A stretch of 64,000 nucleotides of DNA, taken from positions 1,079,927 to 1,143,926 of the forward strand of contig NC_014664.1 of NCBI RefSeq assembly GCF_000166055.1, read 5' to 3'. The stretch comes from Rhodomicrobium vannielii ATCC 17100 (GTDB lineage Bacteria; Pseudomonadota; Alphaproteobacteria; Rhizobiales; Rhodomicrobiaceae). This document shows, one piece after another, positions 44,452 to 50,731 of the stretch. The notes beneath the pieces were generated by a model, which saw only the letters and a list, made by a program, of their open reading frames with translations, was not told the origin of the DNA and made no database searches. The position numbers and the translations under genes were made by a program. Within the stretch, counting starts at the first letter, position 1. Each line of letters starts with the position of its first letter.

Positions 44452-46593
44452 ATGCAGCCGCAGGCGAAACGCTTCATGTCCGGGATCGAGGAAGAAACGG
44501 TGGCGCTTCCGCGCGATCAGGCAATGCCGTCGCTAGTCGATGAGCTGATGGCATCGTCACGGGATTGCATGGCGTTACTCGACGAAAGCGGCGCTATCCT
44601 CGCGATCAATCCGTGGGCCTGCGAAACGATGACCCTCGGCGCGGCCGAGGGCGTCAAAGGCAAGGCGTGGCGCAGGCTCTGGCCGGACGAAGTTCAGGCC
44701 CAGGCGGACCAATTGCTCGCCGACGCTCGCAGAGGCAAGCGCGCGACCGCGATATTGTTTCATGCATCGGCCAAGGTTCCACCGACCCGAGATAACCACG
44801 CGCCTTCCTGGTGGGCCGTAACGCTCAGCCCCATAAAAGATGCCGCGTGTCCAGCGGCGCGCTTTCTCGTCTTCGCGCAAAGTCTAGGTGGAAGCGCCGC
44901 TTCGCAGACCGAGCTTTCGAGCCTGATCGCGCAGCAACGCGCGACCCTCATAGGTCTCTCACGCCAGCTCGCAGACCAGACCGACCGACTCGCCGAGACC
45001 CGCAAGCAGGTCACCCAATCCGAAAAGCTGACGCTTCTCGGGCAATTCGTCGGCAGTGTGGTGCACGACATCAATAACGTCCTGACGGTCATGGCGAGCG
45101 CCTCGCGATTTCTGCGAAAGGGCGACCCGACGAAAGCTGCGGTGGCACTCGAACATGTCGATGCCGCCATCGCGCGCGGCGCAACGCTCGTGCGTCAGCT
45201 TCTCGATTTCTCGCGAAACGACCCGGCGCCATCGGAAGTCGTCGACATCGACCGTGTCCTTACCGAAGATGCCGATTTGCTGCGCCATCTCGCCGGCCCC
45301 CGCGTAACCATCGATTTCGCTGGCGAGGGGGAAGTTTGGCCTGTGCTCGCATCGCGGGGAAGAGTTCAGGCGGCGGTCTTCAACCTCGTCGCTAATGCAC
45401 GCGATGCGATGCCCGACGGCGGCCGTTTGACAATCGCCATCGCGAATTGCCGCGCCAACGAGAGGCCGCTCGGGCTTGCCGCAAACGACTACGTCATGCT
45501 TTCCATCGCCGACACCGGAAAGGGCATGCCACCGGAGGTTCTAAAGCAGGCGGGCCGACCGTTTTTCACCACGAAAGCCAAGGGCGAAGGCAGCGGGCTA
45601 GGCCTGGCCTCGGCCTTCAGCCTCGCGGAGCAGGCGGGCGGCGGCGTCCGCATCGACAGCACGCCGGGACAGGGCACGCGAGTTTCGCTCTATCTGCCGC
45701 GAGCCGCACTCTCCGACGCGAGATCTTCGACGGATTCGAGGCGTGAGCCCGACCTGCACGGCAACGCCCGCATCCTCGTTGCCGAGGGCGATCGCTCCGC
45801 AAGGGAAGCACTCGCCTCATTGCTGAGAGGGCTGCGATACGCGGTGGCCGAGGCTGGCACACCCGACCAGGCTGCGGCCGAGGCGTTGGCAAACAGGCCG
45901 GATCTCATCGTCTGGTCTTTTGACCCAGCCTCACGCACAAGCTTCGATCTGTTGCAGGCGGCCGAAGGTAGCGCGCCTCCGTGCCTCTACACCGCGACGA
46001 CGAATGCGGCCTTGCATCTTCCCACAGGCGAGACCGTCCTGCGCAAGCCGGTGCCGGAAGATCTTCTTTGCCGCGCGGTGCTTGAAAAGCTCGGGCGCAT
46101 TCCGCCTGCGATTATCCCTGAGGAAGCGCTCAGGCTCGCCGACCGCGTTCGCGAGCGGGTCCGAGGCGCCCGGGTGCGAGCGATCTACGAGCTTTGGCGC
46201 ACGGTTTTCGCAGACAAGGCGCGACTTCCGCTTCTCGCCGAAGCCAGGATTTTCGAGGCGCGCGATGTGGCCGATACCTTTCTCATCGAGGTCATTGGCG
46301 AATGGTCCCGGCCCTCTTTCCGCTTCGTTCGCGTCGGAAGTGCGCTGACCGAAAGATATGGCGCACCACTCGATGGGGTCACTCTTGCCGACGACGAGGC
46401 GGACGCCTTCGGCCCGATCGCCCGCGCCTACAAGAGATGCCTTCAGGGCGTCGCCTATTTTGATTACTCGCGTGTCTCGCTTGGCGACGGCAAATTGACG
46501 CTTTTCGAGAGAATGGTTTTGCCAATTTCTGACGATCAGCTGACTATTACCCATCTTTTCGGCATCGCAACCTTTTGCGACATAGACCCGTGA
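44452..46593 (+). CDS. Hybrid sensor histidine kinase: PAS, HisKA, HATPase, degenerate receiver, PAS_5-like
   Basis: A soluble 713-residue kinase. A PAS domain (about 28-145) precedes the phosphoacceptor helix with LLGQFVGSVVHDINNVLTVM (His205) and an ATPase domain containing NLVANARDAMPDGG, DTGKGMP and GEGSGLGLASAFSLAEQAGG. A receiver-like domain follows (about 435-550, ARILVAEGDRSAREALASLL) in which the expected phospho-Asp position in DLIVWSFD is not aspartate, so it is probably a pseudo-receiver. The C-terminus (about 580-710) resembles the PAS_5 family (FRFVRVGSALTERYGAPLDG). It is followed after ten bases by a photoactive-yellow-protein-like gene, suggesting a light- or redox-signalling pair (inference). 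Confidence 0.85.
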   Translation: MQPQAKRFMSGIEEETVALPRDQAMPSLVDELMASSRDCMALLDESGAILAINPWACETMTLGAAEGVKGKAWRRLWPDEVQAQADQLLADARRGKRATAILFHASAKVPPTRDNHAPSWWAVTLSPIKDAACPAARFLVFAQSLGGSAASQTELSSLIAQQRATLIGLSRQLADQTDRLAETRKQVTQSEKLTLLGQFVGSVVHDINNVLTVMASASRFLRKGDPTKAAVALEHVDAAIARGATLVRQLLDFSRNDPAPSEVVDIDRVLTEDADLLRHLAGPRVTIDFAGEGEVWPVLASRGRVQAAVFNLVANARDAMPDGGRLTIAIANCRANERPLGLAANDYVMLSIADTGKGMPPEVLKQAGRPFFTTKAKGEGSGLGLASAFSLAEQAGGGVRIDSTPGQGTRVSLYLPRAALSDARSSTDSRREPDLHGNARILVAEGDRSAREALASLLRGLRYAVAEAGTPDQAAAEALANRPDLIVWSFDPASRTSFDLLQAAEGSAPPCLYTATTNAALHLPTGETVLRKPVPEDLLCRAVLEKLGRIPPAIIPEEALRLADRVRERVRGARVRAIYELWRTVFADKARLPLLAEARIFEARDVADTFLIEVIGEWSRPSFRFVRVGSALTERYGAPLDGVTLADDEADAFGPIARAYKRCLQGVAYFDYSRVSLGDGKLTLFERMVLPISDDQLTITHLFGIATFCDIDP

Positions 46594-46603
46594 AGGGCAG
46601 CCC

Positions 46604-46984
46604 ATGTCCGTTTCGTTCGCCGATCCGAAGCTAGCCCGGAAGCTCGAAGCGCTTTCCGACGAGGAGCGGCACGACCTCCCCTTCGGCATAATAAAGCTCG
46701 ACAGCAACGGGGTCGTTTCCTTCTTTAGTCGGACGGAGGCTAGGGAATCGGGTTGGAAAAAGCGGCCCGCACTCGGCATCGATTTTTTCGTCGGCATCGC
46801 GCCCTGCATGGCCACGCCCGAGTTCAAGGGACGCATCGAAGAAGCGGCCCGTCACGGTGCGGTTGATATCGAACTCGGCTGGGTCGGCGATTTCGACGAT
46901 CCGAATGGCGAAATGACCGTGCGCATTCAATCGGCGGCGGATGGCGGCATCTGGATTTGCCTCGACCGACCGGATCAAGGCTAA
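46604..46984 (+). CDS. Photoactive yellow protein (PYP)-like PAS protein
   Basis: A 126-residue single-domain PAS protein, the length of Halorhodospira PYP (125). It aligns over its whole length from memory: MSVSFADPKLARKLEAL matches the PYP N-cap, then LPFGIIKLDSNG, then FFVGIAPCMATPEFKGR. The chromophore cysteine of PYP (Cys69) is present as Cys68, and the buried Glu46 is present as Glu45. Other chromophore-pocket residues differ: Tyr42 is Phe41, Thr50 is Ser49, Arg52 is Trp51 and Tyr94 is Trp93. It lies ten bases behind a histidine kinase gene with its own ribosome site AGGGCAG. Light sensing through p-coumarate is possible but not shown; no chromophore-synthesis gene is in the window. Confidence 0.75.
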   Translation: MSVSFADPKLARKLEALSDEERHDLPFGIIKLDSNGVVSFFSRTEARESGWKKRPALGIDFFVGIAPCMATPEFKGRIEEAARHGAVDIELGWVGDFDDPNGEMTVRIQSAADGGIWICLDRPDQG

Positions 46985-47334
46985 CCCTCGCCGGAAATCG
47001 CGCGCGTATCCGCCCACCCTCCTCCGCCTTCGCAGCGGCCTGCGCGGACGCGCACCGAGCGGCCTCTCCTCCCCACTTGTTCCACATCGTAATATCAGTC
47101 GGTTTCCACAGAAAAAGATCGGGACGCGCTGTTCTCTTCCGCTGGAGAGAAATACGGTAGCCACAACTAGTGGTCAGACTCCGATTGCAGCACGCTCGCG
47201 AGCAGATGTTGGAATCCCAACCACTAGCAAATCCCGGGTTTCCAGTGGAGCCTTTGAATTTGACGATTGAGCGAGAGGCTGACAGCAACCGGGACTCAGA
47301 TGTCAAACTCGCCCCACCAGGGGTGGAGCGCCGC
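46985..47334. other. Intergenic region after the PYP-like gene
   Basis: A 350-base stretch. The acyltransferase frame stays open back to 47170, but that part lacks family-like sequence, and GTGGAGCG lies right before the ATG at 47335. No repeat or RNA was seen. Confidence 0.35.
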
Positions 47335-49437
47335 ATGATCAATTATCGCCCGGAGGTGGACGGCCTTCGCGCCGTTGCCATCGCGTCCGTGGTTCTGTTC
47401 CACACCGGAAGCCCCGTCTTCGCGGGCGGCTATGTCGGCGTGGACATCTTCTTCGTCATCTCCGGCTATCTCATCACGTCCATCATGTTGAAGGCGCGAA
47501 ACGAGGGCGGATTCTCCTATCTCGACTTCTACGCCCGCCGTGCCCGGCGCATCCTGCCGGCATTATTCGCGATGCTGGCGCTTGTGTCGGGGGCGTGCCT
47601 TCTGCTTTTGGCGACGAACGACCTCGCGAGCTACGGGAACGTGCTGGCCTATACGGTGCTGTTCGCAGCAAACATCCGCCTCATGGGGAGCATGTCCTAT
47701 TTCCATCCCGATTCGCAGCAAAACCCGCTGCTGCACATGTGGTCTCTTGCGGTCGAGGAGCAGTTCTACATCCTCTGGCCGACGCTCCTGCTCGGCGTCC
47801 TCGCCTTGATAAGCGCGCGGCGGGCGAAGGTGCTGTTCGTGGCGCTCGCCGTGGGCTCGCTGATCGTCTCGGAAATCCACATGGTCCTGCGGCCGGAATT
47901 CGCCTTCTATCAGCTCCCCTCGCGCGGCTGGGAGCTTCTCGCGGGCGCGTTGCTCGCCGTGGGCATCGCTCCGCCCATCCGCTCGCACAAGCTCGCAGAA
48001 GCTGTGTCCCTCACCGGCCTCTCGCTCATGATCGCGCCGGTCTTGTTCTACGACAAGACGACATCGTTCCCCGGCTTGGCGGCTCTGCCCCCGGTGCTCG
48101 GCTGCGCCTTCGTAATCTGGGCCGAGACGGGACGCCGGACGCGCTTCGGATCGCTGCTGCGTCTGAAGCCCGTCGTGTTCCTCGGCCTCATTTCCTATTC
48201 GCTATATCTTTGGCACTGGCCGGTGTTCGCGCTCACCAAATATGTGATGATCCGCGAGCCGACACACGCCGAGAGCGCCCTCCTCGTCGCGCTGGCGGTG
48301 CTGGCGGGTTGGGCCTCGTGGCGTTTTGTCGAGCGCCCGTTCAGGCATCGCCCCGCGTCCGCCGCGACTTCCGTTGGCCGGGAGCGGTCTGGGCCGAGAG
48401 TTTTTGCGCTGCCATTCACCCTGCCCGCTTATGGCGCGGGGGCGTTTGCGGCCGTTCTCGTCGCCACCGGAGCCTATTTTCAGCTGTCGGGCGGGGCCAG
48501 TTGGCGCTTCTCGCCCGACCTGATCGAAAAGCTGGACGCCGCCTTCCTCGCGCCCCCGATGTCTTGTGCGAGATCCGCGGAAATCGCGCCGGGGCTTGAG
48601 AAATGCGAGACGGGCCGTCTCGACGGTGGCACCAAGAACGATGTCGTGATGTGGGGTGATTCTCACGCGCGGCATTATCAAGCGCTCATCGCCGCCGTAT
48701 ACGGGGACACCACGACGCTTTACCGGCCGCGCTGCACGCCCGTTGCGGGCGTCTATCTCACTTTCGAACGGCGCAATGCCGACGTCTTGCAGTGCTTCGA
48801 GCAGAAAGCCGCCGTGCTCGCCGATCTCGTGCAAAAAAGACCGCGGGTCGTCATCCTCGCCGGGCGCTGGGGTTTTGCGGAAACCGCGACCGCTACGCGC
48901 ACCCTTTACGAAAGGCCGGACATGCGCCGGTCGCGCGATGTCTTCGCCGCAGCGCTGCGCGAAACGGTTTCGCGGCTTACCGATGCGGGCATCAAGGTGG
49001 TGCTTATGGCTCAAGTGCCGGAGATCCGCGTGCCGACAAGCCACTGTCTCGGCGTCTACAAACATGTTTTCGGCTGGACGGACTGCTATTTCGTGTCGCG
49101 CAACGACTATGTCGCCCAATTCGGCTGGACGAACGATCTCCTGCGATCCATCGCCGACGACACTCCCAACGTAGCGGTTTTCTGGCCCGCAGAGTCCCTG
49201 TGCGAGGGCGATGTGTGTCGACCGGTACGCGACGGCAAGCACCTCTATTCCGATAATAACCATCTGACGGCGGAAGGCGCGCTATCGCTCGTGAGCGCCT
49301 ACAGGTCGACGGTCCCGGCGGCGTTTCTTCCTTTACCCGAGCCGCGGTCGGTCGACAGCGCGTGGGCTCCCTCTCCGATGGAGACGGGCAATCTCGCGGC
49401 CAGCACCTTCCAACCCGAGGGAGGCGCTTCCCGATAG
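47335..49437 (+). CDS. OafA/YrhL-type acyltransferase with SGNH domain
   Basis: A 700-residue membrane acyltransferase. It begins INYRPEVDGLRAVAIASVVLFH and has VGVDIFFVISGYLITSIML and HMWSLAVEEQFYILWP, the motifs of the acyltransferase-3 family, with about ten membrane helices to residue 400. The periplasmic SGNH part starts at DVVMWGDSHARHYQ and ends with DNNHLTAEGA, giving the Ser and Asp/His of the esterase-like fold. Such proteins O-acetylate surface polysaccharides or lipopolysaccharide. The start is uncertain by up to 55 codons. Confidence 0.9.
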   Translation: MINYRPEVDGLRAVAIASVVLFHTGSPVFAGGYVGVDIFFVISGYLITSIMLKARNEGGFSYLDFYARRARRILPALFAMLALVSGACLLLLATNDLASYGNVLAYTVLFAANIRLMGSMSYFHPDSQQNPLLHMWSLAVEEQFYILWPTLLLGVLALISARRAKVLFVALAVGSLIVSEIHMVLRPEFAFYQLPSRGWELLAGALLAVGIAPPIRSHKLAEAVSLTGLSLMIAPVLFYDKTTSFPGLAALPPVLGCAFVIWAETGRRTRFGSLLRLKPVVFLGLISYSLYLWHWPVFALTKYVMIREPTHAESALLVALAVLAGWASWRFVERPFRHRPASAATSVGRERSGPRVFALPFTLPAYGAGAFAAVLVATGAYFQLSGGASWRFSPDLIEKLDAAFLAPPMSCARSAEIAPGLEKCETGRLDGGTKNDVVMWGDSHARHYQALIAAVYGDTTTLYRPRCTPVAGVYLTFERRNADVLQCFEQKAAVLADLVQKRPRVVILAGRWGFAETATATRTLYERPDMRRSRDVFAAALRETVSRLTDAGIKVVLMAQVPEIRVPTSHCLGVYKHVFGWTDCYFVSRNDYVAQFGWTNDLLRSIADDTPNVAVFWPAESLCEGDVCRPVRDGKHLYSDNNHLTAEGALSLVSAYRSTVPAAFLPLPEPRSVDSAWAPSPMETGNLAASTFQPEGGASR

Positions 49438-49462: not shown

Positions 49463-50731
49463 TCAGGCCGAAAGCCTCTCGACCATAGTCTCCACGCCGA
49501 AAAGGAACATCCCCGAGCCGCCGATGAGGATATGCGAGACGGTCGCCGCCATCAGCGAGTTCGTCCGGGCGAAGATCCAGCCCCACAAGATGCCGGGCAG
49601 GAACGCGGCGAGCGCGAAGGCGAGACTGATATGCGCGTGAGCCGCCGCAAACACGAGGTTTGATGCCAGGATCGACGCCCAGCGGCGCTTCAATTCGCTG
49701 CCATGAAGGAAGGCGTAGAGCGGCGCCTGAATGCCGGAGCGCGCCACGAACTCCTGCATCGGGGTCAGCAACAGATAGACCGCGAGCGCGACCCAGTACC
49801 ACGCCGAATTCGTCCCAAGGTGCCCTTCCATCTGGACGTCAGCGCCGTCGATCAGCGACACGTCCGCAAAGCTTTGGGTGGTATGGATCAGCACCCACTT
49901 CACCGCGAGGAAGAACAGGATGAACAGCAGCGACATGCGTAGCGAGTAAGCTAATGCAGGACGCCAGTTGCGCAGTTGGAGCCCGAAGAAGCTCAAAGGA
50001 AAACCGCTTGTCGCGATGATTGGGATGAAGGACAGGCTGAACAGCAGGATGATCAGCGGAGAAAGCGCGAAATTCGCGTGCGCCACACTCTTGAAGGCGG
50101 GCAGAAAGCTGAGCGTCAGCGTGTAGAACGACAGAAGACACAAGGTGGTGACGACGATGTGTCCGACGCCGTTGCGGTAGGCGGAGAATTCGTTTTCGAG
50201 CTGAAGGGTGTTCACGCGCAAGGTCACCGAGTCGTCGGCGTGCCGGGCGATGCGATGGCGAAGCTTGCTTGTTACGATCTCCCTGAGCCGCCTTGTGGTG
50301 CGTCGGCGGGCCGAACCGCTGAGGTCGAGCACCGCGACCGTCGCCTCAACCGTCGCCGTGAACGTCAACGCGCTCGGCTTTCCGTCAACAAAAGACAGTT
50401 CGCCGAAGATGTCGCCGCGGCGCATCAGGCCGATCTCGTAGGATGTCGGCAGCCCTTCGATGGGCGAAAGCCCGAGTTTCGTGGCCGCCACCTGCCCTTC
50501 GATGACGATGAAGATTTTTCCGGGGTTTCTTTGCCCCTCGGACAGGATTTCGCGTCCGGTCTTGAAGCGCTTATACTTGATATGCGGGAGGATGATCCTG
50601 ATCTGCTGCCGCGTAAGGCTGGAAAACAGAGGGTTTCTGGGAATCTCGATAGAGTTGTTTCTTACCCTCGCGTGAAGGCGAGGCAGAGCCGGGGCGGCCA
50701 GAGTGTTTGCCAATTCAACCATATGTTCCAA
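49463..50731 (-). CDS. Cyclic-nucleotide-binding domain fused to CPBP-type membrane protease
   Basis: A 422-residue protein in two parts. Residues about 35-150 form a cNMP-binding fold (FKTGREILSEGQRNPGKIFIVIEGQVA and GDIFGELSFVDGKPSALTFTATVEATV). From about 190 onward there are six or seven membrane helices with the CPBP/CAAX protease motifs QEFVAR, FAAAH and SHILIGG. The first motif usually reads EExxxR; here the first Glu is Gln, so activity is uncertain. The second motif FxxxH is intact. Nothing next to it suggests a substrate. It converges with the acyltransferase gene. Confidence 0.8.
   Translation of the reverse strand: MEHMVELANTLAAPALPRLHARVRNNSIEIPRNPLFSSLTRQQIRIILPHIKYKRFKTGREILSEGQRNPGKIFIVIEGQVAATKLGLSPIEGLPTSYEIGLMRRGDIFGELSFVDGKPSALTFTATVEATVAVLDLSGSARRRTTRRLREIVTSKLRHRIARHADDSVTLRVNTLQLENEFSAYRNGVGHIVVTTLCLLSFYTLTLSFLPAFKSVAHANFALSPLIILLFSLSFIPIIATSGFPLSFFGLQLRNWRPALAYSLRMSLLFILFFLAVKWVLIHTTQSFADVSLIDGADVQMEGHLGTNSAWYWVALAVYLLLTPMQEFVARSGIQAPLYAFLHGSELKRRWASILASNLVFAAAHAHISLAFALAAFLPGILWGWIFARTNSLMAATVSHILIGGSGMFLFGVETMVERLSA

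Follow-up and report, generated by a model that had tools for sequence, protein, structure and literature searches.

We analyzed a window of 64,000 nucleotides, a term that we use throughout for this whole stretch of DNA, from Rhodomicrobium vannielii, a purple bacterium whose genome (4,014,469 bp in one contig) was found to contain a single pyp-like gene. This gene is located on the forward strand at positions 46604–46984 and encodes a protein of 126 aa related to photoactive yellow protein (PYP). An orphan histidine kinase gene (44452–46593, forward strand; 713 aa) ends 10 bp upstream, which bears out the statement of the initial annotation that the pyp-like gene adjoins a kinase gene. Domain analysis gave the order PAS_4, HisKA, HATPase_c, a degenerate receiver domain (REC) and PAS_5 for the kinase. 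Downstream, an Acyltransferase-3/SGNH gene (47170–49437) sits between pyp and a reverse-strand gene (49463–50731) whose 422-aa product appears, by eye, to combine a cyclic-nucleotide-binding N-terminal part with a CAAX-protease-like membrane part. This last protein is kept in all the Rhodomicrobium genomes that we checked.

The pyp product matches the PYP family over nearly its full length. The TIGR02373 profile (photo_yellow) covers residues 4–118 (E = 4.4e-19; 68.8 bits); this score is below the equivalog cut-off of the profile (143.05 bits), which is reported to recover only ~20% of PYP homologues (PMC9664959). The best solved structures were those of Ppr of R. centenum (1mzu; E = 6e-14), again nearly full length, and wild-type PYP chains of the PDB matched at about E = 1e-10. 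A profile built from the four members of the kinase-linked clade described below retrieved PDB PYP chains with E-values down to 4e-24. PAS was the sole Pfam match (E = 0.003, below cut-off), and the match to FixL was weak relative to that of TIGR02373 (E = 0.07 versus 4.4e-19). The open reading frame is therefore real and its best matches are to PYP rather than to another PAS family, as the initial annotation had supposed when it claimed full-length similarity and proposed a profile search. Membership was assessed following PMC9664959, which treats as members those PYP homologues that conserve Cys69. Whole-domain homology to PYP exceeds homology to other PAS families, the cysteine is present in an APC motif, and of the two hydrogen-bonding residues Tyr42 and Glu46, at least one of which a member should have, the glutamate is present, position 42 being a phenylalanine. 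The closest named relative is found in Rhodomicrobium sp. Az07 (assembly G006; 87% identity), and a search of plasmids yielded more distant PYPs only. A fold predicted from two sequences (the window protein and L004) was of low confidence (mean pLDDT of 56) and found PDB PYPs, but at a TM-score of about 0.4.

The active site was compared using the alignment to H. halophila PYP, which is without gaps to about residue 110 and in which residue i of the query corresponds to residue i+1 of PYP (H. halophila numbering is used below unless one-letter codes are given). The two proteins are only ~25% identical, but they share a single domain of ~125 aa, an N-cap, a nearly ungapped alignment, Cys69, Glu46, Pro68 and Phe62/63. 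The initial annotation had pointed to the N-cap, to the chromophore cysteine of the APC motif and to the buried glutamate, and all of these are present: C68 (codon 46805–46807, forward strand) aligns with Cys69 and E45 (46736–46738, forward strand) aligns with Glu46. Its reading of four substitutions was exact as well (Tyr42 to F41, Thr50 to S49, Arg52 to W51 and Tyr94 to W93), and the alignment adds four changes that it did not list (Phe96 to G95, Met100 to D99, Asn43 to S42 and Thr70 to M69). Positions 42, 52, 94, 96 and 100 all differ from H. halophila PYP. The substitutions listed in the initial annotation are not all special. Trp94 is unusual, since Tyr94 is reported to be highly conserved among PYPs, whereas the other three have precedents or affect a variable position: Phe42 occurs in 8.9% of 984 PYPs, Ser50 is known from two characterised PYPs whose absorption is blue-shifted, and position 52 is weakly conserved (PMC12826048). 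The combination of Phe42 and Ser50 leads us to predict a shifted or split absorption band. Mutation of Phe96 is reported to slow the photocycle and Met100 has been proposed as the catalyst of re-isomerisation (PMC9664959); the loss of both residues predicts a slow dark recovery.

The kinase-pyp gene order is common to four genomes: R. vannielii, Az07, an order-level relative (G323, an assembly that is fragmented with 6% contamination) and a member of the Azospirillaceae (G741). The HisKA/HATPase gene is found directly upstream of pyp in each of them, with a spacing of 10 bp in R. vannielii, about 7 bp in Az07 and 10 bp in G323, and with a 4-bp overlap in G741. The four kinase-linked PYPs form one clade (support of 99/99), a grouping to be taken with caution given the long branches in the tree set. 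The whole clade is marked by Ser50, Gly96 and Asp100, and Trp94 is found in three of its members, the one of G323 presenting a cysteine. Cys69, Glu46, Pro68, Ser50 and Gly51 are retained by all four PYPs, and the APC motif, Cys69 and Glu46 are identical between R. vannielii and Az07. Within the clade, Phe42 and Trp52 are restricted to Rhodomicrobium.

The catalytic core of the kinase (45037–45705, forward strand; HisKA, 32.8 bits; HATPase_c, 77.3 bits) conserves the phospho-acceptor His205 in the motif VVHDINN, the N box and the G box, and H205, N311, N315 and D354 are invariant columns of the kinase alignment. The receiver domain (45760–46095, forward strand) is degenerate, with a PF00072 score of 15.7 bits that is below cut-off. 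Its phospho-acceptor aspartate is replaced by serine (DLIVWS) in both pyp-carrying Rhodomicrobium species; the Azospirillaceae homologue (L051 of G741) reads DLVVTD and has an intact receiver (55.3 bits), and the G323 kinase retains the same aspartate with the usual acidic pair missing. A direct Pfam search gave no match for the tail of the kinase. However, a profile of the PAS_5 proteins from the compared genomes matched residues 570–707 (46159–46572, forward strand) in a profile-profile comparison, with an hhalign probability of 98.7% and a score of 99, as against at most 15.7 for ten column-shuffled profiles. On this profile evidence, the last 140 residues of the kinase are a divergent PAS_5 domain (PF07310-type). 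The fold of this tail, predicted from two sequences (the window protein and L004), had a mean pLDDT of 37.

Kinase and pyp were jointly present or jointly absent among the genomes compared. A full-length match to the kinase was obtained in only three of the eight compared genomes, all with pyp (G000, G006 and G323), and the other five match just the common kinase core. Three of the five Rhodomicrobium genomes are missing pyp; in G004 and G005, neither kinase nor pyp was found. In the close relative G007, the segment 44154–47056 is missing as a unit, with flanking DNA ~92–95% identical on both sides and a neighbour protein 99% identical to its R. vannielii counterpart. The kinase-pyp pair of Az07 adjoins the same CAAX-protease-like gene as in R. 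vannielii, indicating that the locus is shared between these species. Judged by the neighbour genes that they share, G007 stands closer to R. vannielii than Az07 does, and a loss of the segment as one unit is therefore the simpler reading. Az07 also encodes a homologue of the Acyltransferase-3/SGNH protein (48% identical), which is located across the CAAX-type gene, on the opposite side from the R. vannielii arrangement. This position of the acyltransferase homologues on different sides of the same gene shows that the spot is rearranged between species.

Between R. vannielii and Az07, the dN/dS of pyp is 0.11, which indicates that the gene is under purifying selection. The kinase presents a dN/dS of 0.21 and is evolving faster than its neighbours. 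This faster evolution, the degenerate receiver and the patchy presence of the pair within Rhodomicrobium would be expected of a horizontally acquired module that is decaying without function. We consider such a remnant very improbable: the frames are open in both species, the kinase catalytic residues are intact, the operon spacing is maintained and the low dN/dS of pyp argues against decay.

We found no recognisable dedicated genes for chromophore supply. The Lyase_aromatic profile (PF00221) has zero matches in the R. vannielii genome, neither a tyrosine ammonia lyase (TAL) nor a histidine ammonia lyase, and none in the Az07 genome. By profile, the PYP-type p-coumarate:CoA ligase (TIGR02372) was detected in neither genome; the best match (50.7 bits) is a general acetate-CoA ligase, aligned over the C-terminal third common to AMP-forming ligases. 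The R. vannielii locus is therefore not a classical pyp-pcl-tal operon, and in this respect it differs from H. halophila PYP. The initial annotation had named missing chromophore-synthesis genes as evidence against its own proposal; these genes are missing by profile, but the PYP homology, the conserved cysteine and glutamate and the kinase linkage are upheld. The lack of these genes does not imply that the chromophore is absent, because most pyp operons are without TAL: of the published operons, just ~5% carry TAL and 32% the ligase, and p-coumarate uptake is regarded as possible (PMC12826048). These figures indicate that the missing genes lower the case for a p-coumarate chromophore without removing it. 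R. vannielii also encodes a protein of the benzoate-CoA-ligase family (604 bits), which could in principle activate a hydroxycinnamate taken up from outside. A literature search returned nothing linking R. vannielii to coumarate.

In G323, pyp is followed by a TIGR02372 p-coumarate:CoA ligase gene (238 bits), so that a relative of the module is built around p-coumarate. An ammonia lyase of the same genome (L037) was rejected as a TAL; it is probably a histidine ammonia lyase, since it sits in a hutI-hutH-hutG-like cluster. Six single-domain canonical PYPs from other alphaproteobacteria (L054–L059) each lie near or adjoin a p-coumarate:CoA-ligase-like gene, unlike those of Rhodomicrobium.

The main alternative is that the Rhodomicrobium PYP has moved off p-coumarate and acts as a light-independent regulatory subunit of the kinase, which would serve as an adaptor or would sense redox state or some other ligand. 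This is possible, though we do not favor it. Both pyp-carrying Rhodomicrobium genomes are without the lyase and the ligase, the ligase adjoins pyp in G323 and not in R. vannielii, Phe42 and Trp52 are found only in Rhodomicrobium, and the receiver aspartate was lost on that same branch. A precedent is offered by the PYP domain of methylobacterial Ppr, which is proposed to have lost light sensing and likely gained a new function (PMC9664959). However, the methylobacterial domains thought to be without chromophore have neither Cys69 nor Glu46, whereas both residues and the APC motif are unchanged between R. vannielii and Az07, and many PYPs are photoreceptors even though most pyp operons lack TAL (PMC12826048). 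In a more specific and somewhat unlikely version, PYP would have left p-coumarate light sensing after its chromophore supply was lost and would now be selected as a regulatory subunit of the kinase, possibly as a sensor of another aromatic acyl thioester. If true, this PYP would be in the middle of a change of function with its chromophore cysteine still present.

It is also conceivable, but we think it doubtful, that the reshaped pocket holds another hydroxycinnamate or aromatic acyl thioester, so that the protein would either be a photoreceptor with a distinct spectrum or monitor the supply of aromatic-CoA. The change of Phe96 to glycine would free space, and Trp52, Trp94 and Met70 would add bulk nearby; the benzoate-CoA-ligase family enzyme is compatible with such a ligand, and a phototroph living in waters rich in plant material could plausibly obtain aromatics from its surroundings. 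Against this, the related operon of G323 carries a p-coumarate-type ligase, and the pocket is read here from an alignment, the structural model being of too low confidence to be usable.

We favor the interpretation that the R. vannielii protein is a kinase-coupled PYP photoreceptor, a slow blue light sensor that uses scavenged p-coumarate or a close analogue, with a probability of roughly one in two. Cys69 and Glu46 have been kept under selection, whereas four of the five Methylobacterium-type Ppr domains that we examined have lost the two together, and this pattern of residues favors a bound thioester chromophore. The lack of an ammonia lyase and of a PYP-type ligase and the five departing positions in the pocket region count against the photoreceptor interpretation. 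Under this model, pyp would be the sensor half of a two-gene module with the PAS-HisKA-HATPase-(pseudo)REC-PAS_5 histidine kinase. Cys68 of the apoprotein would take up a p-coumaroyl-type thioester derived from external plant aromatics that a general aromatic-CoA ligase would have activated. Blue light would isomerise the chromophore, which would be protonated by Glu45, and PYP would then partly unfold. The altered contact between PYP and the kinase, perhaps at the C-terminal PAS_5 domain (docking to this tail is our guess), would change autophosphorylation. Because the Rhodomicrobium kinase receiver is without its aspartate, the phosphate would have to pass to a separate receiver protein and not to the kinase's own REC domain.

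Among known systems, Ppr of R. centenum and of methylobacteria shares with this protein Ser50 and the pairing of PYP with a histidine kinase, and 1mzu was its best-scoring structure. However, the PYP of Ppr is fused to a phytochrome-kinase, whereas here it is encoded by a separate gene and the kinase has no phytochrome; in addition, the methylobacterial forms examined are mostly without Cys69 and Glu46. Within one genus (g85, probably Methylobacterium), the Ppr-type PYP domains L007, L008, L009 and L011 have lost both residues and L006 retains both. A fusion of another kind is found in G741, which carries, besides its separate kinase-pyp pair, a single protein (L052, 2921–6153) in which a kinase is fused at its C-terminus to a PYP with the canonical Tyr42, Tyr94 and Phe96. 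A p-coumarate:CoA-ligase-like gene lies just upstream of L052 on the same strand and overlaps it by 4 bp. Another match in G741, the third (L053), is an ordinary PAS region and was rejected as a PYP. Our literature search found nothing linking Rhodomicrobium to photoactive yellow protein, and the supplementary tables of the PYP surveys may already list the gene.

For a single-domain PYP, the signalling partner is unusually clear here, as it is a single kinase gene that is co-conserved and co-lost with pyp. The members of the clade also form a natural gradation, which starts with an operon that has Tyr42 and a ligase gene and ends with one that has Phe42/Trp52, a dead receiver and no recognisable chromophore genes. 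Together, these features open PYP-kinase signalling, as well as chromophore loss or alteration, to direct testing in a genus that can be cultured. Kinase-pyp operons are already known: HisKA/HATPase genes upstream of pyp are reported as a recurrent pattern (8–9 operons; PMC12826048, Table 2), with the kinase gene immediately 5′ of pyp as in our four genomes. The main text of that study makes no mention of the PAS_5 tail, the lost receiver aspartate, the pocket of this clade or Rhodomicrobium. Relative to these operons, the co-occurrence of kinase and pyp and the state of Rhodomicrobium, without chromophore genes and without the receiver aspartate, are new, as is a clade defined by its own pocket signature and its PAS_5-tailed kinase.
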